Of a DNA stretch of 26,563 nt, positions 1,930 through 24,532 are shown one piece after another. Every line of letters starts with the position of its first letter. The stretch's first letter is position 1. The stretch lies in IMG/VR virus record IMGVR_UViG_3300025913_000100, positions 1 through 26,563 of that record; one strand, given 5' to 3'. Made by a program: the position numbers and the translations under genes. This DNA is from a virus. Under the pieces are notes generated by a model. The model was not told the origin of the DNA, searched no databases, and was given only the letters and a program-made list of their open reading frames with translations.

Positions 1930-2253
1930 TCACTCGACGACCTCGAATGTAACCGTCACCCTGAAGATGGTCTTGGGCGGGTCGCCCGGTGCCATCGCCT
2001 GAAACGCAACACGTTCGGCTTTCGCATCCGCGGCTCCGTAGAACAGCGGCGGCAGGTGAAAGATCCACGACGTCTTCGTCCGTGCGGGTGGTGAGAAGCC
2101 GGCGTTCTCCACGAGGTAGCCGACGAACGGCTTCGGGACCTTGGCGGGGGCGACTTTCTTGGCGGGCGTGGTCGCTTCGGCCTCGTCCAGCCTCAGCCGA
2201 ACCGCCTTGGCCAGGTCCGGGGTTACGGCTTCGACCTGCTCGATGTCAGTCAT
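1930..2253 (-). CDS. Hypothetical protein
   Basis: 107 residues from the ATG at 2251-2253, which overlaps the stop of the upstream HNH-containing gene by 8 bases (ATGACTGA). A GTG at 2259 would add two residues. An Ala/Lys/Pro-rich stretch (about residues 27-42, with KKVAPAKVPKP) separates a helical N-terminus from a C-terminal half with SWIFHLPPLF and a last strand FRVTVTFEV, probably a small beta-rich domain. No family recognised. It is followed after one base by the zinc-ribbon gene. Confidence 0.75.
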   Translation of the reverse strand: MTDIEQVEAVTPDLAKAVRLRLDEAEATTPAKKVAPAKVPKPFVGYLVENAGFSPPARTKTSWIFHLPPLFYGAADAKAERVAFQAMAPGDPPKTIFRVTVTFEVVE

Positions 2254-3103
2254 GACCACCGGCCGCGGTTCGGTCGTCGTCGCTGTACGCGTACAGCCCG
2301 GACTGCGTGCCGTCGGTGATGACGGAACTTCGAATCCGCTGAAGAACTGCCGGACCTACAAGTCGCACGGCAAGGAGTTCCGCATCGGCCATCAAGGCGG
2401 CTTGAGTATGGCTCAGGTCAGCCTTCTTCAGGGCGTTCTCGGCAACCGAACCGAGGTAGTCACTGCCGTAAACTCCCGTATAGTTCGACGCCTTCGCCTT
2501 TGCCTGCTGCGCCTTCACCGTCGCACGCGAGCACGTCCGGCACCTTCGGTGCCCGGTCCTGGGGTCAATTTTCGTGTTTGCCTCATCGTAAGGATGCCCC
2601 TGAGGGCAGTGCGTCTTCGCTCCAACCCATCCAATTCCACGTCCAGTAAAGCCAGCACAAGCCCTGCATGCGCGGCCGCGTCCCCCGTTAACCAACTTCG
2701 TATTCTCAGGTGAGTACGGATGGCCTTGAGGGCAGTGCGTCTTGTCCCGATTTGGAAACCATCCACGGCGAATATTCTCGCCTATCGTAACTGGTTCCAA
2801 ATGGTCGGGGTTAACGCACTTCCGGTTCCGGCAGAGATGGTCAAGCACCAGGTCATCTGGGATCGGGCCCACGAGGAGCAACCACAGCCAGCGATGCGCC
2901 CCCGTTTCCTTCCTCACGTCGCGATACGAAGTCGTAAATCGGCCGTAGCCAGCATCGCTAAGCAACCCCTGCCATTCCCAACAAATGCCAGTGGCGTCTA
3001 CACGCACAAAAAAGCGGGAAATGTCACTGGCTTTAGCCTTGAAATCGGAGCGGTCGATAACGAGGTGGATGTGGCGGCGGGCGGTGTCGGGCTGGGTGGT
3101 CAT
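2246..3103 (-). CDS. HNH endonuclease fused within a small phage protein
   Basis: 285 residues. The HNH nuclease core lies at about residues 70-106 (VGPIP, DHLCRNRKCVNPDHLEPV), with D88-H89, N98 and H101 as metal-binding and catalytic positions. It is preceded by the GICWEW strand typical of phage HNH_3-type enzymes. Two zinc-knuckle repeats follow, each THCPQGHPY plus a CxxC (about 123-149 and 165-191). The C-terminal 80 residues (NYTGVYGSDYLGSV onward) do not belong to the HNH family and look like the continuation of the first 26 residues. The start chosen is the ATG at 3101-3103 behind GGAGA. The frame stays open back to a GTG at 3385 that makes a GTGA overlap with the preceding gene, so a 379-residue form with a Pro/Ala-rich N-terminus is possible. 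Confidence 0.85.
   Translation of the reverse strand: MTTQPDTARRHIHLVIDRSDFKAKASDISRFFVRVDATGICWEWQGLLSDAGYGRFTTSYRDVRKETGAHRWLWLLLVGPIPDDLVLDHLCRNRKCVNPDHLEPVTIGENIRRGWFPNRDKTHCPQGHPYSPENTKLVNGGRGRACRACAGFTGRGIGWVGAKTHCPQGHPYDEANTKIDPRTGHRRCRTCSRATVKAQQAKAKASNYTGVYGSDYLGSVAENALKKADLSHTQAALMADAELLAVRLVGPAVLQRIRSSVITDGTQSGLYAYSDDDRTAAGGHD
2486..3025 (-). mobile_element. Putative in-frame HNH insertion inside a host gene
   Basis: Residues 27-206 of the 285-residue gene hold the whole HNH plus zinc-knuckle module. The flanking parts, MTTQPDTARRHIHLVIDRSD...KAKAS before it and NYTGVYGSDYLG... after it, read as one continuous 105-residue protein when the module is removed. The peptide KAKAS occurs at both junctions (residues 22-26 and 202-206). 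Local base composition is visibly less GC-rich in this segment (many A/T third positions near 3000-3030 and 2560-2600). This suggests acquisition of a homing-type nuclease cassette. Boundaries are inferred from protein continuity only; no intron core or intein splice residues are seen. Confidence 0.4.
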
Positions 3104-3381
3104 GGTTCTCCGATCGAAAACGTCTGTGAGGGCTTCTGAGGGCCGCGCACGGCCCACGGCGTCTTCCGGGGCCTGCGCGGCGTTCTGGGGGCTGTGCGGG
3201 GCGCTGAGGGGTCGCGGTGAGGCACTCACGGCCGAACCGATGGGCGCGGGCGCGCATGGGGGCGGAGTGGCCCTGTGGGGTCCGTAGGGGCGCGCGAAGG
3301 TGTCGTTGCGGGTCCCAGGAGGTTCCGCCCCCTGGAAGGCTCTCTGCGGGGCGCTCAGGGCGTCGCTGGCGACGAGAGGCG
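3104..3381 (-). other. 278-base stretch without an assigned gene; hairpin and repeat
   Basis: This is the longest unassigned stretch. It holds a GGAGA ribosome site just ahead of the ATG at 3103, a perfect 6-base-pair hairpin with a 4-base loop at 3140-3155 (GGGCCG/CGGCCC), and an imperfect 17-base direct repeat, 15 of 17 identical, at 3192-3208 and 3342-3358 (core TGCGGGGCGCT). The minus-strand frame of the HNH gene stays open across it with mostly G/C third positions, and a GTG at 3385 overlaps the upstream stop. It may therefore be coding for a disordered N-terminal extension rather than a leader. No clear promoter was found. Confidence 0.5.
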
Positions 3382-3570
3382 TCACTGCCGACCCCCGAAC
3401 ACCGTGCCGATGAGGTCCGACACGTGCGCCAGCGCGTAGCCGAACGGCAGCGTCGCCACCGCGAAGAACCCGCACAGCAGCACCGCGGTACCGATGCCGC
3501 TGCGGATCCAGCCGGGGCTGCGGTCCCAGCCATGCTCCTGACGAGGCTCCCGGCGAAACGCGCGCTTCAC
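3382..3570 (-). CDS. Small single-pass membrane protein
   Basis: 62 residues from a GTG that overlaps the stop of the LuxR-type gene (GTGA, 3567-3570). A basic N-terminus (KRAFRREPRQ) is followed by one hydrophobic segment of roughly 20-25 residues (GIGTAVLLCGFFAVATLPFGY, shown in part), then a short tail ending VFGGRQ. By the positive-inside rule the N-terminus would face the cytoplasm. Its coupling to the WhiB and LuxR-type genes suggests a joint role, but none is known. Function unknown. Confidence 0.7.
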   Translation of the reverse strand: MKRAFRREPRQEHGWDRSPGWIRSGIGTAVLLCGFFAVATLPFGYALAHVSDLIGTVFGGRQ

Positions 3571-4040
3571 GCCGCCACCCGTTCCGACCGGCGCACCGGC
3601 ACCAGCCGCAGCGCCCCGCACGCCACACCCGCCGCCACTGCCTCCTCGCGGCCGGACACGCCCAGCACCACAAACAGCCGCCGCACCCGCGACTTCACCG
3701 AATCGGTACTCAAGTGCAGCTCGACGCCGATCTCCCGGTTGGACATGCCGCGGGCGATCCGCACCAGCACGTCGAACAGGCCCTCGTCGAAACCGGCCGG
3801 GACCTCACCGGTCACCGACACCGGCAGGTCGCCGCGCCGGATCGCGAGCCCGACAACCCCGGCACGGTCCCCGATGCCGTACTTCGCGGCGACACGGGCC
3901 ATGTGGTTCTTCACCGTCAGCGGCAGCAGGCCGAGCTCCGCGGCGATCGCTGCGTTCGTCATGCCGCCCGCTACTAGCGCCACCACCTGCTTCTCGCGGT
4001 CGGTCAACGGCAGGCCGCGAAGTCCCTTCGGGGCGGTCAT
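3567..4040 (-). CDS. Tandem LuxR/GerE-type HTH DNA-binding protein
   Basis: 157 residues. Two LuxR-type HTH units are visible: the first at about residues 12-56 (LTDREKQVVALVAGG, then AAIAAELGL and TVKNHMARVAAKYG), the second at about 85-130 (LVRIARGMSNREIG, then LSTDSVKSRVRRLF). There is no receiver or sensor domain, so the protein is essentially two DNA-binding domains in a row. It would act as a transcription regulator, with both halves possibly contacting one operator. The ATG overlaps the WhiB stop (ATGA, 4037-4040), and a longer in-frame extension into the WhiB gene was rejected. The second HTH is more diverged from the LuxR consensus than the first. Confidence 0.8.
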   Translation of the reverse strand: MTAPKGLRGLPLTDREKQVVALVAGGMTNAAIAAELGLLPLTVKNHMARVAAKYGIGDRAGVVGLAIRRGDLPVSVTGEVPAGFDEGLFDVLVRIARGMSNREIGVELHLSTDSVKSRVRRLFVVLGVSGREEAVAAGVACGALRLVPVRRSERVAA

Positions 4041-7210: not shown

Positions 7211-7723
7211 CTAGAACGGAGCGTCCTCGGGCGAACCCCAGCCGCCCTGCCAGCTCTGGCCGGCAGCCTGTTGTCCGCCGCCCCACCCGCCCTGGCTCTG
7301 CTGGCCGCGGTTGGACTGCTGGCCGGTACCCTGCTGCTGGTTGCCGCCGGACTGGCCGCTGCGGGAAGTCTTGGTGACCTTCGCCGTCGCGTACTTCAGC
7401 GACGGGCCGATCTCCTCCACGTCCAGCTCCACGACGGTGCGCTTCTGGCCGTCCTTCTCGTAGGAGCGCTGCTTCAGCGCGCCCCTGGCGATGACACGGG
7501 TTCCCTGCGTAAGTGATTCGGCCGCATGCTCAGCGGCGTCCCGCCACAGCGAGCAGCGCAGGAACAGCGGGTCGCCGTCCTTCCACTCGTTCGCGTTCTT
7601 GTCGAACGTGCGCGGGGTGGAGGCAATGGTGAAGTTGGCGACGGCCGCGCCGGACGGGGTGAAGCGGAGTTCAGGATCGGCGGTGATGTTGCCGACGACG
7701 GTGATGATCGTTTCGCCACTCAT
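7211..7723 (-). CDS. ssb: Single-stranded DNA-binding protein
   Basis: 170 residues. The OB-fold domain occupies residues 1-110, with typical strands [44 protein letters not shown] and [14 protein letters not shown] Gly/Gln/Ser-rich flexible linker follows (about 120-160), then the acidic tip EDAPF, which in SSBs docks partner proteins. It coats single-stranded DNA at the fork and fits beside the helicase and initiator genes. The ATG is preceded by a GGAAGG site. A seven-codon frame (7720-7743) overlaps the start in an ATGA arrangement and may be chance. A 97-base leader with competing hairpins precedes it. Confidence 0.95.
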
Positions 7724-7820: not shown

Positions 7821-8627
7821 TCACGGCGCGTCGCCGTTCAGCAGGCGAAAGTTCTTCGGCAGCGGCAGCACCCGGTCATACGGCTCCTGAAAACAGGCCG
7901 TCACCATGCCCGCGATGCCGTTGCGCTGCTTGGCGATGGTGATGTCAATCTCGCCTGCGCGAGTGTTGTCGCCGTGCGCATCAGGTCGGTGCGTCAGCAG
8001 CACCAGGTCGGCGTGCGCCAGGTACGAGTCGCGGTAGTCGAAGTCCTGAAGCGTCGGCTCCAGACCGATGGGCTTGTCGTCGCGCGTTACCAGCGGTACC
8101 GACACCACGACCGGGATACCTGCGCGTCCGGCCAGAGTCTTCAATGCAAACGACTGCATCTCAGCCCGGTGCTCCTGGTTCTCGACCCGCGCCCCATCCG
8201 TTAGCAGCAGGTGCGCGCCCTCAATGACCAACAGCCGCACGTGAGCCTGGGCAACGCGCTCGGCAATCTCGGCGATTGCGGGGTCGGCGCAGTTGAGGAA
8301 CAGCGGCGCGGATCGCATCGCCTCGGACACGGCGGCGATACGGTCGGTCTCCCGCTCATCGAGGGTGCCCCTGGTGATGTGGATGTACGGCACGCCGGCC
8401 TGTGCGGCAACGAGGTGGTCCATCGTGATGGCTTCGCTGTGCCGGCAGCTGGTGAACAGCGTCGGGATGCCGCGGTTGATTGCGACGTTGCGTGCGACGT
8501 TGGCCGCGAGCGTGTCGGCACCCATGCCGTAGCGGCTGGCGATGACGACAAGGTGACCGCCGCGCAGGCCGCCATAGGCGAGCTGGTTGTCAAGGTCAGC
8601 CAGGCCAGTAGGGATAAGGTCGTTCAT
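7821..8627 (-). CDS. DnaB-like RecA-fold paralogue with destroyed ATPase motifs
   Basis: 268 residues that align by eye along their whole length with the C-terminal helicase domain of the DnaB gene just upstream: [10 protein letters not shown] corresponds to TEWRDLDEKV, and the ending [14 protein letters not shown] to GEIDLIIAKNRNGP. The Walker A is lost: where DnaB has GGRPGGGKS, this protein has ASRYGMGAD (residues 30-38), with the Lys and Ser both replaced. The catalytic Glu of SSMEM becomes R in TSCRHS, and the Walker B Asp becomes Glu ([10 protein letters not shown]). It lacks the N-terminal helical domain. It probably cannot hydrolyse ATP and may regulate or load DnaB, or bind DNA. The ATG lies behind AAGGAG, 50 bases after DnaB. 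Confidence 0.8.
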
Positions 8628-8677
8628 GGGGCTCCTTCAGTTGGTGTTGGATGCGGCCTTGATCCGGCCGTTCTCCT

Positions 8678-10027
8678 TCAGGAATGGCGGGCCATGTCGT
8701 CGAGGCGCGACACGTAGCCGCGGAACGCAAGCGGGATGGTGATGTCCTTGGGTCCGTTGCGATTCTTGGCGATGATCAGGTCGATCTCGCCGAGGCGTTT
8801 GCGGTCCTCGCCCTCCTCGGGCTCGGGATGGGTGAGGATCACGATGTCGGCATCGTTCTCAATGGACCCTGATTCGCGCAGGTCGCTCATCTGCGGCTTC
8901 TTGTTGGTACGTTGCTCGGCGCCGCGGTTGAGCTGGGCAAGAGCGATGATGCAGATGTCGAGCTCGATGGCCATAAGCTTCAGGCCGCGAGTGAACTCGC
9001 CGACCTCCAAATCCCGCCGCTCCGCCTTCTTGGTGGCGGTCATGAGCTGCAGGTAGTCCACGACCACAAGCTGCGGCTTCAGGGTGCGGCTCATCCAGCG
9101 AATCCGGGCGCGCAGGTGGCCGAGGCTGGTAGCGGAGTGGCAGTCGATGACCAGCGGGGATTCGCGGATCTCGTCGGCGACCTTGGCGATGTGTTCCCAG
9201 TCGTACTCGGTGAGGGTGCGGTTTTCGAGCCGGGTCATGGGCACGCCGGACCGTTGAGCGAGGGTGCGCTGCAGTACCTCGGTGCGGGGCATTTCCATCG
9301 AGGACACGAGGGCCGGGATGCCGTTGTCGATGGCGGCGTGTACGGCGACTTGCAGCCCGATGATGCTCTTGCCGCCGCCGGGCCGTCCGCCAACTACCAC
9401 CAGCCGGCCGGGGCGCATGCTGACCTTCTCGTCGAGGTCGCGCCATTCGGTGGTGATGCGGCGGCCGTCGTCGGGCCGGGACAGGTCTTCGAGGTAGTCG
9501 TCGAAGTCGTCGCGGATCCACAGCGGCTCCTCGACCTTGGCGTGGGGGAGCGCGTTGTGAAGGTCGTCGATGATGCGGTCGATGTGTTCGAGTTCGAAAG
9601 TCGGGTGGCTGGTGATGCCGACTCCGCGGACGCAGGCAAGTTGCACGCGCCGACGGATGGCGTCTTCGCGAATTACCTCGGCATCGGCTTGCAGGTTGCC
9701 GATGGCGTGGGCGCCGACGTGGATTAGCTCCGGCAGGCGTTCGGCCAGGCGCGGCAGCGCAGCCATGCGGCCGGTTTTGGCCAGGTGGTTTCGGACTGCG
9801 ATCTCGTCAACGGGCTTGCCGGAGCTTGCCAGTTCGGTTGCGGCAGCGAAGACGGCGGAGTGGATCAGGTCGTAGAAGTCGTCTTCGGTAAGGATCCCGA
9901 TGACTGCGTCAACGTGCCGGGTGGAGAACATGACTCCACCGGCCACGGCTGCTTCGGCCTGGAGTACCGCAGGGTGCGGGCTGAGGTTGCCCGAGGTGGT
10001 GCCTGTGGTGTCGTCAGTGGTGGTCAC
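8678..10027 (-). CDS. dnaB: Replicative DNA helicase DnaB
   Basis: 449 residues from a GTG in a GTGA overlap with the initiator-like gene. The N-terminal helical domain (about 15-130; HPAVLQAEAAVAGGVM, then LTEDDFYD) joins through a linker to a RecA-type motor. Walker A is GGRPGGGKS (213-221), the catalytic Glu lies in SSMEM (E245), Walker B is VVVDYLQLM (D324), and the later QLNRGAEQR and DLRESGSIENDAD are DnaB motifs H3/H4. It unwinds DNA at the fork as a hexamer. A longer in-frame extension overlapping the initiator gene is Arg/Pro-rich and was rejected. Length and motifs are normal for the family. Confidence 0.96.
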   Translation of the reverse strand: MTTTDDTTGTTSGNLSPHPAVLQAEAAVAGGVMFSTRHVDAVIGILTEDDFYDLIHSAVFAAATELASSGKPVDEIAVRNHLAKTGRMAALPRLAERLPELIHVGAHAIGNLQADAEVIREDAIRRRVQLACVRGVGITSHPTFELEHIDRIIDDLHNALPHAKVEEPLWIRDDFDDYLEDLSRPDDGRRITTEWRDLDEKVSMRPGRLVVVGGRPGGGKSIIGLQVAVHAAIDNGIPALVSSMEMPRTEVLQRTLAQRSGVPMTRLENRTLTEYDWEHIAKVADEIRESPLVIDCHSATSLGHLRARIRWMSRTLKPQLVVVDYLQLMTATKKAERRDLEVGEFTRGLKLMAIELDICIIALAQLNRGAEQRTNKKPQMSDLRESGSIENDADIVILTHPEPEEGEDRKRLGEIDLIIAKNRNGPKDITIPLAFRGYVSRLDDMARHS

Positions 10028-10944
10028 CGCGGGTCCTTTCCTGTCTGGGCGAGGGGGCTGCAGTCGGGGCAGCGTTGGAACCCGTTGCCGGTGTCGATCA
10101 GGCGGGACGGCTCTTCGCACTTGCCGCACCAGTCGGGCATGGACGGGCCATTGGATTCGGACGGCCGTTCCGATCGATAGCGACTGGGCTGGGGCAGGCG
10201 AGAGTGAAGGAAGCCGCCGAGGCTTTGAATGGGGTTGGGCGGGTTGTCGGTCATGCGTGCCCGCAGTTCATCTGCGGGCCACCCAAGGGCCAGCAGTTGC
10301 GCTATCTCGGTGGCGAGCTTTTCGGCTGTTCGCCGTCCGGGGCGGAGATTGGCGGGCTCAAGCGCAGCAAGGAGTGCAACCGCTTCGGCTTCGTAGGCAA
10401 TGTCCGCAGGGTTGCCCGCGGGAAGATCCGATCCACCGCCCGACCGTTGGCCGGGAACGGTTGTGTCCGGCGGCCGGGAGTCGTTCTGGTTGGTTGGTTT
10501 TAAACCTCTAACCTCTCCTGGCGTGACATCGCGTGACATTCGCGTTTTGTCACGTGACGTGTCCGGAGTGTTGTCACGTGACGCGTCACGTGATTTTTCA
10601 TCCTCCCTCGCGGCAGCCTCGCGCTCCCGCTGAGCCCTCTTGCGGTCGCGATCCGACCTCCGACGTGCAGCGAGAGCGTCGAGCTCGGACTGCCAGTCTG
10701 CCCATCGCTTGATCTGGTAGCCGTCCTCAACCTCAACCCAGAGGCCAACTTTTACGAGCGTGGCCGCGCGCCGATTTGCGTTCGAAGGAGTGAGGCGTTT
10801 TACCAAATTTTTGCTCACCAGCCCGGCCGTCTCCTCCCTGGCGCAGTACGCCAGGGCGCGAACGAAGAGCAGCTCTGCCTGTTCGCCGGCGGCCACGATT
10901 TTCGGGTCGTCGGCGTAGTTGGCGGCGAGCTTGAACCACTCCAT
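10024..10944 (-). CDS. Replication initiator / helicase-loader-like protein
   Basis: 306 residues. The N-terminal 85 residues (MEWFKLAANYADDPKI, then KRLTPSNANRRAATLVKVGLW) resemble the winged-helix region of phage replication organisers. A long charged linker (about 90-185) is rich in SRD triplets encoded by the iteron-like DNA inside the gene. A helical segment follows, then a C-terminal zinc ribbon, CGKC ... CPDC (about 269-294). The layout of origin-binding head, flexible linker containing the origin repeats, and Zn tail parallels lambda O, and DnaB follows immediately (GTGA overlap). It is likely to open the origin and recruit DnaB. Ribosome site is weak (GAGAG). Confidence 0.75.
   Translation of the reverse strand: MEWFKLAANYADDPKIVAAGEQAELLFVRALAYCAREETAGLVSKNLVKRLTPSNANRRAATLVKVGLWVEVEDGYQIKRWADWQSELDALAARRRSDRDRKRAQREREAAAREDEKSRDASRDNTPDTSRDKTRMSRDVTPGEVRGLKPTNQNDSRPPDTTVPGQRSGGGSDLPAGNPADIAYEAEAVALLAALEPANLRPGRRTAEKLATEIAQLLALGWPADELRARMTDNPPNPIQSLGGFLHSRLPQPSRYRSERPSESNGPSMPDWCGKCEEPSRLIDTGNGFQRCPDCSPLAQTGKDPR
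10521..10593. repeat. Iteron cluster, candidate replication origin
   Basis: Inside the initiator-like gene lie two copies of GCGTGACAT spaced exactly 10 bases apart (10521-10529, 10531-10539), two perfect palindromes GTCACGTGAC (10549-10558, 10573-10582) and a 9-of-10 copy (10585-10593). Palindrome starts are 24 and 12 bases apart. All share the half-site GTGAC. Short T-rich runs flank the cluster (TTTT at 10545-10548, TTTTT at 10594-10598, and TTTTAAA around 10497-10504). Origins made of iterons within the initiator gene are known from lambdoid phages. The repeat translates into the SRD-rich linker. Confidence 0.6.
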
Positions 10945-14002: not shown

Positions 14003-14644
14003 TCAGTCCTTGATGCGGTAGCCGTTGCCGTCGGGCTTCCACGTGCCGGCGGTGACGAGCTGGTCCACCAGCGCGGGCGTCCCGAACGCGTGGGCGATGT
14101 GCTCGGGCACGAAGTTCGGGTTGCTGGTGTCCGCAGCCCAGGCGCGGCAGCGGTCGTGGACGCCGGCCGTGCCGGCGGCGTGGCCCCCGATTGCGGGCTT
14201 CTTGTGCCGCGCCGTTGCCGGGCGCTTCTTTGCCGCGGCCGTCGGGGTGCTGTGGATGCCCTGCAGCTTGCGGCAGGTGATGACGCCGAGGCGGGTGGCA
14301 AGTGCGTCTTCGGCCGCGCCGATGATGGCGGATGCCTTGGCGAGCACCTCGTGTCCGGCGTCGGTGACGGCGATGGTGTGCCGCCGTCCGGTGCCGGGAA
14401 TGCGGGTGGCCTCGATGAGGCCTTGCGCGGTGAGGTTGTGCAGCAGGATGGTGCCGGTCTGTGGGGTGATATGGCAGGCACGTGAGGCGTCAGCGCCGCT
14501 GCATCCGGGGTTGGTGGCGAGCGCAGTAAGGAACTCGACCTGCGGGACGGTCACGCCTAATGGGCGTAGTTGCCTGTCGAGGGTGTTGCTGACGTCGCGG
14601 GCTACGGATCGCAGGGCCTGGATGGTTCCGGCGGTGTCAGTCAT
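14003..14644 (-). CDS. MarR-like winged-helix regulator
   Basis: 213 residues from ATG 14642-14644. Residues about 5-115 fit a MarR fold: helix ALRSVARDVSNTL, then VTVPQVEFLTALA, HTH with ADASRACHITPQTGTILLHNL, a wing around TGRRHTIAVTDAG and a closing helix LAKASAIIGAAEDAL. A basic linker (KKRPATARHKKP) leads to a C-terminal domain of about 60 residues ending WKPDGNGYRIKD, not part of classical MarR proteins. It probably binds DNA as a dimer and represses genes. A long N-terminal extension crossing a GC hairpin was rejected. Confidence 0.75.
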   Translation of the reverse strand: MTDTAGTIQALRSVARDVSNTLDRQLRPLGVTVPQVEFLTALATNPGCSGADASRACHITPQTGTILLHNLTAQGLIEATRIPGTGRRHTIAVTDAGHEVLAKASAIIGAAEDALATRLGVITCRKLQGIHSTPTAAAKKRPATARHKKPAIGGHAAGTAGVHDRCRAWAADTSNPNFVPEHIAHAFGTPALVDQLVTAGTWKPDGNGYRIKD

Positions 14645-14687
14645 GGCGTGCGGTCCTTTCGGTTGCGGGATGATGCGGTGGCCGGCC

Positions 14688-14720
14688 GGCCCGGGGTCGT
14701 TAAGGGATCCCGGGTTGGCC
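14688..14720 (-). terminator. GC-rich inverted repeat, possible terminator
   Basis: Between the coiled-coil gene and the MarR-like gene (79-base gap), the arms GGCCCGGG and CCCGGGTTGGCC flank a loop of about 13 bases that contains TTAAGGGAT. CCCGGG is itself a palindrome, so alternative pairings exist. No T-run follows on the transcribed strand. It could be a weak terminator or an RNA-processing stem separating two gene strings. Confidence 0.35.
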
Positions 14721-14723
14721 CGG

Positions 14724-15086
14724 TCAGAGCTGGTTGCCGATGCGGTTCCACGGCCGCCACTTCTCGCGCTGGTCGATTTGGTTTTGAAGCCGGGCGTTCT
14801 CGCGCTGAAGCCGGTCAATCTCCAGATCGCGTGTGTCGATGCCGGCTGCGAGTTCACGACAGCGCTGCTTGTCGCGCCGCGACTCTGCGACGGCGTCCTC
14901 GAGTTCTGCTTCGGCGGCTTCGGCTCGGGCGGTCTGTGTTGTGGCGCAGGCCTTGTAGATGTCGGCGAGCGCTCCGGTCCGGTGGAGGTCGTCGGCGAGC
15001 CTGCGCACGGTGGCGGTGAGTCCGGCGACTTGTTCCTCCAGCGTCGGCTCGATGACGGCGGTGAAGGTGGGCATGGGAGCGGTCAC
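14724..15086 (-). CDS. Coiled-coil protein, unknown function
   Basis: 120 residues from a GTG overlapping the upstream stop (GTGA); an ATG four codons later is an alternative start. After a short N-terminus (TFTAVIEPTLEE), most of the protein is heptad-like helix: LTATVRRLADDLHR, ARAEAAEAELEDAVAESRR and LEIDRLQRENARLQNQI. It ends WRPWNRIGNQL. This predicts a parallel coiled coil and oligomerisation. No function assigned; it may be a scaffold or a binding partner of the preceding protein. Confidence 0.75.
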   Translation of the reverse strand: MTAPMPTFTAVIEPTLEEQVAGLTATVRRLADDLHRTGALADIYKACATTQTARAEAAEAELEDAVAESRRDKQRCRELAAGIDTRDLEIDRLQRENARLQNQIDQREKWRPWNRIGNQL

Positions 15087-23076: not shown

Positions 23077-23295
23077 CTACTCCGGCCGCGTATCCCGAGG
23101 CGGGATCTCTTTCAGGTCCTCGTCGTCGAGCGGGCGCCACGGCTCGGGCACGAAAGGCTTGACGTAGTCCCGGCCCGGGATCGCCTGTGACAGGTCCTCC
23201 TGGAGCTGCTGGTTCTCGCGCCGCATCATCACCAGGTTTCCGACGAGGAAGACGATGCCGAGGAGAAGGAAGCCGATGATGATGTAGGCGATCAC
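23077..23295 (-). CDS. Small membrane protein
   Basis: 72 residues from a GTG in a GTGA overlap with the HNH gene. The N-terminal 25 residues are strongly hydrophobic (IAYIIIGFLLLGIVFLVGNL, shown in part), followed by a charged coiled-coil-like stretch (MMRRENQQLQEDLSQ) and an acidic, Pro-rich tail. This is a typical single-pass protein with a cytoplasmic C-terminus. Function unknown. It ends in TAG just before the structured gap. Confidence 0.75.
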   Translation of the reverse strand: MIAYIIIGFLLLGIVFLVGNLVMMRRENQQLQEDLSQAIPGRDYVKPFVPEPWRPLDDEDLKEIPPRDTRPE

Positions 23296-23822
23296 GAGGT
23301 CACCGCCACGGAATTCTGCGACTTCGTTTGGCGCCGCTCGGACTCGCATTGCGGGCAGTAGCGCTTCCCGCGCCGCGAGAGATCGAATGGATGACCCTTG
23401 GCGCATTCGGTCCGCCTGGCGTTGTAGCTCGTTGGTGACGACCCACGCAGGTTGTTGACCTTTCGGGTCACGGGCTCAAGGTGGTCCGGGTTGACACACG
23501 CTCGATTTCGGCACAGGTGGTCGAGTTCAAGTCCGCGTGGTATCGGCCCAACAAGAAGCTCGTAGGCAACCCGATGGGCCTTCTCCCAGCGCCCGGCCCG
23601 ATAGAAGTGGCCGTACCCCTTGGGGTTCTTGTAGGCCGTCCACTCCCAACAAATTCCTGACGCGTCCACCTTTGACCACAGTCGATCCGCAACCGACAGG
23701 GGCTCGCGAAGGGGGTCACCGTGGAGTAGCCAGCGCTTGTAGTGCTTGTCGCACCAACCGCGGGTTCTGCCGCTGCCGTTGCATTCAGGAATTGAGCAAG
23801 GTCGTTTGATTTGGGCGTTCAT
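23292..23822 (-). CDS. HNH endonuclease
   Basis: 176 residues; ATG in an ATGA overlap with the exonuclease gene. An N-terminal zinc finger (PCSIPECNG, GWCDKHY; C9, C14, C24, H27) leads to a GICWEW strand, then VGPIPRGLELDHL and CRNRACVNPDHLEPVT, the HNH core with D-H, N and H in the same layout as the 2246-3103 protein. A second zinc ribbon (CAKGHPF ... CPQC) follows. It probably acts as a free-standing homing-type nuclease. Third codon positions are less GC-rich than in neighbours, which suggests later acquisition. It ends QNSVAVTS. Confidence 0.88.
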   Translation of the reverse strand: MNAQIKRPCSIPECNGSGRTRGWCDKHYKRWLLHGDPLREPLSVADRLWSKVDASGICWEWTAYKNPKGYGHFYRAGRWEKAHRVAYELLVGPIPRGLELDHLCRNRACVNPDHLEPVTRKVNNLRGSSPTSYNARRTECAKGHPFDLSRRGKRYCPQCESERRQTKSQNSVAVTS

Positions 23823-24532
23823 GACTGAGCCACCCATTCGCGAACCGGCCACGAACCGTCGTAGTCGCCATCGGTCTTGCCCTGGCGCCGGTGATACGCC
23901 TCCAGCCCGGCCATCTGCTCCGCGCGCCAGCCAACCTGCCACCGGTGCAAACTCTCGAGGCTCGCCTCTCCGACCTGCGGATACCTGACGGCGATCTCCT
24001 GCGCCAGCCGCACCGCACCTAACGCGTCCGCCGCCGCGTCGTGCGCGTTTGCCAGGCTAATTCCGTAGAACTCACACGTCGCGCCCAGAGTCCGGCTGCC
24101 CCGGCGGTACTTATCGGCCGCCTTGTCGATCACGTGCGGGTCAATCACCGGCGACGGGACCCGGCCCAGCCGGTCCGACAGCGTCGGGACTCCGACGCGA
24201 CGACATTCCCGGTCCAGGATCGTGAAGTCGAAGCTGGCGTTGAACGCGACCACCGGAGTTCCGGTGATGAAAATGGTCTCCAGGTGCGTAGCGATCTCCT
24301 CGATCGCCAGTTCCCGCTCGGCACCGTTTTCGTTGGCGTGGTCCGTAGAAATTCCGTGGACCTTGAACGCACCCTCGGCAATCGCACGTTCCGTCTGCAA
24401 CAGCCACGGCCGGCTGTCGATCTGTCTGTCGCCGTCGACCGTGAGGATGGTTGCGGTGATGATCCGCGCGTCCTCTGGATCGGCAGAGTCCGTCTCGAGG
24501 TCGTAGCCGGCTAGTCGCTGTGCCCAACTCAT
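23819..24532 (-). CDS. DEDD 3'-5' exonuclease (DnaQ/RNase T-like)
   Basis: 237 residues; ATGA overlap with the Gp3-like gene. Exo I is GYDLETDS with D11 and E13. Exo II is VAFNASFDF with D102. Exo III is NAHDAAADA with H164 and D169, the DEDDh arrangement. These are the residues of DnaQ-type proofreading and of RNase T. It would remove nucleotides from 3' ends during repair, recombination or RNA turnover. The C-terminal 50 residues (RWQVGWRAEQMAGLEAYHRR) are an added helical tail. There is no polymerase in the window to pair with it. Confidence 0.92.
   Translation of the reverse strand: MSWAQRLAGYDLETDSADPEDARIITATILTVDGDRQIDSRPWLLQTERAIAEGAFKVHGISTDHANENGAERELAIEEIATHLETIFITGTPVVAFNASFDFTILDRECRRVGVPTLSDRLGRVPSPVIDPHVIDKAADKYRRGSRTLGATCEFYGISLANAHDAAADALGAVRLAQEIAVRYPQVGEASLESLHRWQVGWRAEQMAGLEAYHRRQGKTDGDYDGSWPVREWVAQS

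Follow-up and report, generated by a model that had tools for sequence, protein, structure and literature searches.

A DnaB C-domain paralogue with a degenerate ATP site and retained trans-acting fingers: a candidate accessory subunit of the replicative helicase

Why a virus should keep a second copy of the motor domain of its replicative helicase, placed next to the complete gene and with its ATP-site motifs degenerate, is the question raised by the locus described here. DnaC, lambda P and DciA are small non-helicase proteins that are encoded with replication genes and act on DnaB, and to our knowledge none of them is a paralogue of DnaB. Only for a few loaders is it understood how ring helicases are opened and loaded, and little is known of the mechanism by which DnaB is delivered to the DNA of actinobacterial phages and linear plasmids. 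Recurring, apparently dead DnaB domains that carry trans-acting fingers would provide a direct test of helicase-ring control by a pseudo-subunit.

The window analysed, 26,563 bases long with a G+C content of about 67%, comprises an entire IMG/VR virus record, and actinobacterial phages and plasmids carry the closest relatives of its replication genes. On the minus strand, the replication initiation gene (RepInit) is followed by dnaB, the gene of the paralogue (here called pseudo-DnaB) and the gene of a single-strand binding protein (SSB). The two genes that an earlier note on this DNA had placed at 7821-10027 are thus both present, on that strand. The features of the cluster are as follows:

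10024..10944, minus strand: replication initiation protein (PHROG 2447, 113 bits; C-terminal CxxC...CPxC)
8678..10027, minus strand: replicative DnaB helicase, 449 aa (Pfam DnaB and DnaB_C, motifs)
8632..8638, minus strand: Shine-Dalgarno sequence GAAGGAG, 4 bases upstream of the pseudo-DnaB ATG (sequence)
7821..8627, minus strand: pseudo-DnaB, 268 aa, a DnaB C-terminal (RecA-fold) domain (Pfam, alignment, AlphaFold2 model, fold match)
8514..8540, minus strand: codons of the degenerate Walker A of pseudo-DnaB, residues 30-38, ASRYGMGAD (translation, alignment)
7923..7931, minus strand: codons of the kept fingers of pseudo-DnaB, Lys233-Gln234-Arg235 (translation, alignments)
7211..7723, minus strand: single-strand binding protein, downstream of pseudo-DnaB (Pfam SSB, PHROG 44)

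The initiator gene and the start of dnaB overlap by 4 bases, and 50 bases separate dnaB from the pseudo-DnaB gene; the start codons are GTG and ATG, respectively. The DnaB of the window has both its N and C domains, and its motifs are intact (GGRPGGGKS, SSMEMP, VVDYLQL, AQLNR and KNRNG). No gene for a loader of the DnaC, lambda P or DciA type was identified in the window between the initiator and dnaB. The 9-mer CTGAAGGAG occurs twice on the minus strand, at the dnaB stop codon (8673-8681) and, 41 bases on, before the start of pseudo-DnaB (8632-8640). Further upstream, residues 218-284 in the C-terminal part of an open reading frame at 14003-14857 (minus strand) match the N-terminus of the replication-initiation PHROGs 2447 and 1882, so that there may be another initiator-like piece here, a truncated one, 3 kb upstream of the initiator gene (10024-10944). 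Two HNH endonuclease genes of the window, at 2246-3673 and 23292-23942 (minus strand), have the same PHROG, 826, as their best match.

The paralogue was said in the earlier note to correspond to the DnaB helicase domain along its length, and several lines of evidence agree. Pfam DnaB_C matches residues 5-252 of the 268 with 107.6 bits (cut-off 27; 9e-31), and alignment with the DnaB of the window gives 29% identity over 238 residues (E 2e-21). Structure prediction, which had been proposed as a check, yields an AlphaFold2 model with a pLDDT of 91.8 and a pTM of 0.90 that adopts the DnaB fold; it superposes on DnaB (4esv_C) with a Z of 34.4 and an rmsd of 2.0 over 253 residues. The best DnaB structures reach Z 31-34, while T7 gp4, RadA and Rad51 score lower (21-24 for RadA and Rad51), and it is therefore DnaB, and not an unrelated RecA-fold family, that fits best. 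The alignment scores, like the fold match, rule out that the homology to DnaB is a product of chance. The protein has no N-terminal domain and no linker helix, since it starts (MNDLIPTG) 4 residues ahead of the C domain, within an open frame of 271 codons only. The gene was rightly described as intact with a strong ribosome site, and its GC content by codon position (0.70/0.44/0.83, against 0.68/0.43/0.84 for dnaB) is as for a translated gene.

What distinguishes the protein is its ATP site. In place of the Walker A GGRPGGGKS of DnaB it has ASRYGMGAD, so that the Lys is replaced by Ala and the Ser/Thr by Asp; TSCRHS in place of SSMEMP changes the catalytic Glu to Arg, and VIEGAH in place of VVDYLQ changes the Walker B Asp to Glu. 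These substitutions had been read correctly, and two more losses can be added to them: the Gln of motif H3 is gone (VSVPLVT as against ALAQLNR), as is motif H4, which is LRESGSIENDAD in DnaB. In a phage DnaB, Wildcat Gp80, mutation of the Walker A Lys to Ala abolished helicase activity (PMC4523182). The statement that all ATPase motifs are lost nevertheless goes too far, as the protein keeps the Walker A glycine G36 and the trans-acting pair Lys233/Arg235 (TIAKQRNG). In an alignment of 44 DnaB C domains, of which 15 rows lack the Lys, the sole invariant columns are G36, P191, K233 and R235. When residues are counted from where the PDB alignments end, K233 and R235 stand at the position of K440/R442 in Escherichia coli and K418/R420 in B. 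stearothermophilus, residues that pair with the Walker motifs of the neighbouring subunit and complete its ATP site (PMC6391071); R442 of DnaB has been termed an arginine finger (PMC4705694). Set against the DnaB C-terminal domain family (PF03796), pseudo-DnaB is alike in whole-length homology, predicted fold and lysine/arginine finger hairpin; it is unlike in having no N-domain, linker helix, canonical Walker A/B, Glu or H3 Gln, and in adjoining a complete DnaB.

One orthologue was found, in a 46 kb virus record (L255). Its protein of 281 aa is 41% identical to pseudo-DnaB (142 bits), has GHSGHGST as a Lys-less Walker A and Thr for the catalytic Glu, keeps the fingers, and has the GAHL and VPLV signatures in common with the window protein. 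The two form one clade with support of 100/98. In this record, a gene for replication initiation comes first, then a small gene and the Lys-less C-domain gene, which is the sole DnaB_C match there, although the record is possibly incomplete. The earlier note had held that confinement to this phage together with decay would count against its reading; this relative, and the lack of signs of decay, speak otherwise. The L255 protein was found only with a two-row alignment (A4) as query, and it is the only window-type orthologue that the searches returned. Neither genome nor virus contigs yielded a relative in peptide-pattern scans that used only the window protein, the hits of tblastn searches of phages and plasmids were for the most part ordinary DnaBs (about 30-35%), and a two-row profile (A6) run on 395 genomes of the class placed ordinary DnaBs on top, from which that profile cannot separate the paralogues. 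Identity between the window and L255 proteins is 68% in the finger region (206-252), as against 35% around Walker B and 32% around H3/H4, whereas active DnaB pairs of similar overall identity average 44%, 48% and 56%, respectively. A skew of this kind is matched by 10 of 162 active DnaB pairs, so the contrast is suggestive and not extreme, and retention of the fingers could in part reflect the stability of the fold.

A 116 kb record (L036) has the same order as the window, with RepInit, DnaB and a C-only DnaB, and the initiators are alike. Here the P-loop Lys of the C-only protein is intact, and this protein may represent the state before the Lys was lost. It joins the window and L255 proteins weakly (support 82/96). 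A quick tree had paired it with the window protein; that placement was rejected, as L255 proved to be the firm sister once added.

Lys-less paralogues of the DnaB C domain also occur more widely, in plasmids and genomes of Streptomyces, Nocardia, Pseudonocardia, Planomonospora and Sinosporangium and in several virus records; among 51 Streptomyces genomes, a set that includes the starting genome, 3 have such a copy. In 21 Lys-less proteins, the Walker A Lys is replaced by Arg in 15 and otherwise by Ser, Thr or Ala. The finger Arg is present in all 21 and the finger Lys in 20, while the H3 Gln is present in 2, as against 228 of 233 Lys-bearing DnaBs (counts uncorrected for relatedness). Most are single-domain proteins, with longer frames in L012 and L103. 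Thirteen form a clade with support of 100/96, from which the window and L255 proteins branch separately in the tree; one origin for all Lys-less copies is not rejected (single clade, AU p 0.59), nor is kinship of the window protein with its neighbouring DnaB (p 0.30). Members of the sister clade have mostly changed the P-loop Lys to Arg only and have lost the H3 Gln, and they keep the catalytic Glu and the Asp. Because the P-loop change is so limited and the Glu is kept, these proteins may still bind nucleotide and work unlike the window protein. Close members have dN/dS values of 0.11-0.26, which indicates purifying selection among them.

The suggestion that phages keep the two genes as a pair applies to part of this set. 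The dead copy adjoins DnaB in the window, and a Lys-less copy directly follows dnaB in L010, L100 and L190; elsewhere the record has no DnaB homologue besides it (G055, G057, G495-G497 and three Streptomyces plasmids). A DciA-family gene lies near the Lys-less copy in L004 and L011. A search for Terminase_4 in nine records gave no match, a result that is not informative on whether they are phages.

Taken together, these observations lead us to propose, with belief and doubt in about equal measure, that pseudo-DnaB, a paralogue of the DnaB motor domain, is non-catalytic and that selection maintains it as an accessory subunit of the replication helicase. With its own ATP site lost and its neighbour-facing side kept, an accessory subunit is proposed that introduces a seam into the ring and serves in loading or control. 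Judging from its motifs, pseudo-DnaB would not bind or hydrolyse ATP normally. Docking in the manner of a DnaB subunit is proposed because the Lys/Arg finger face has been kept: through this face the protein would attach to an active DnaB beside it, whose ATP site it would complete, and its own dead side would form a seam at which the ring could not close normally. Its most likely use would be in opening DnaB, loading it or positioning it at the origin of the element, the target being the element's own DnaB in the window and the host DnaB where the element has no other copy. The best reading of the sequences appears to be one in which the protein opens or regulates the active DnaB ring. Such a role would be like that of DnaC, lambda P and DciA, which the protein differs from in being a DnaB paralogue. 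The earlier note had envisaged a pseudo-ATPase cofactor, be it a hexamer partner, a loader or an inhibitor of host DnaB; a conserved DnaB partner is the best-supported form of that idea, and the retained lysine/arginine fingers, which it had missed, are the main mechanistic clue.

An alternative possibility is that pseudo-DnaB acts as an inhibitor, a dominant-negative subunit that would enter the host DnaB ring and block it, thereby freeing replication resources for the phage. Intact fingers on a dead subunit are the expected look of such a poison subunit, and in several elements the Lys-less copy comes with no other DnaB in the record. We consider this unlikely, however, as the gene lies between dnaB and ssb in a replication operon and its product would come into contact with the DnaB of the phage itself. 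Sister-clade members, moreover, are stably kept plasmid genes, some near a DciA-family gene, and a block of host replication would be self-defeating for them.

We are similarly sceptical of a role apart from DnaB rings, as a RecA-fold factor for DNA binding or recombination that still binds nucleotide or forms a homo-oligomer of its own. Paralogues of RadA and Rad51, found lower in the fold list, have such roles, and the sister clade, with Glu and Asp kept and often only Lys changed to Arg in the P-loop, would be compatible with one. The window and L255 proteins, in contrast, are without the P-loop Lys, the catalytic Glu, H3 and H4, and the Z scores are far higher for DnaB than for RadA or Rad51. 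A precedent might be seen in D29 Gp65, a single-domain RecA-core protein of a mycobacteriophage that has been reported as a nuclease (PMC4523182) and is likewise a lone DnaB-related C domain in an actinobacterial phage. Its P-loop is intact (CAGPGTGKS), however, and it has no sequence match to the window protein worth the name (BLASTP E 0.24 over 44 residues), and it was rejected as the family of that protein. That the gene is a decaying, functionless duplicate of dnaB, as its long branch and loss of motifs might suggest, is very improbable given its open frame, strong ribosome site and coding codon-position GC, its relative with the same losses in another virus, its well-folded model and the purifying selection in the sister clade.

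Close parallels are found in Streptomyces plasmid proteins annotated as "DnaB-like helicase C-terminal domain-containing protein". Like pseudo-DnaB, these consist of the C domain only, have lost the Walker A Lys and keep the fingers, and some are encoded directly after dnaB. They differ in forming a separate supported clade, in mostly changing Lys to Arg, and in their length of 290-320 aa with an N-terminal extension. The papers found give no function for them, and their annotation is by domain only. In two such plasmids (L014 4823-5773 and L016 353-1309), the DnaB-C paralogue directly after dnaB has an N-terminal CxVCL stretch and is far more degenerate, with the P-loop wholly gone (GTRSRSREA) and the finger motif AKDRSG kept. 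The recurrence of these proteins in actinobacterial phages and plasmids suggests an accessory replication-helicase subunit of an undescribed type. More tentatively, the phages and plasmids of actinobacteria might have turned a copy of the helicase motor domain into a loader or regulator that works by subunit mimicry, inserting by its finger face and opening DnaB rings. The open-access papers searched describe neither a loader or regulator of this kind nor a dead DnaB C-domain paralogue.

Some of the records surveyed show further peculiarities. In one Lys-less copy alone the finger Lys has changed too (IVARNRHNP); this copy is at 4701-5864 of L316, a record with a second DnaB_C gene. A linear plasmid of Nocardia (L003, NZ_CP109597.1) carries two equal-scoring Lys-less copies, at 95762 and 122825, on opposite strands. 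Finally, the DnaB of Cellulomonadaceae and relatives (L159, L160, L162-L165 and L168) has an interruption within Walker A (AARPAIGKA ... HNSTL) whose place and ends are those expected of an intein.
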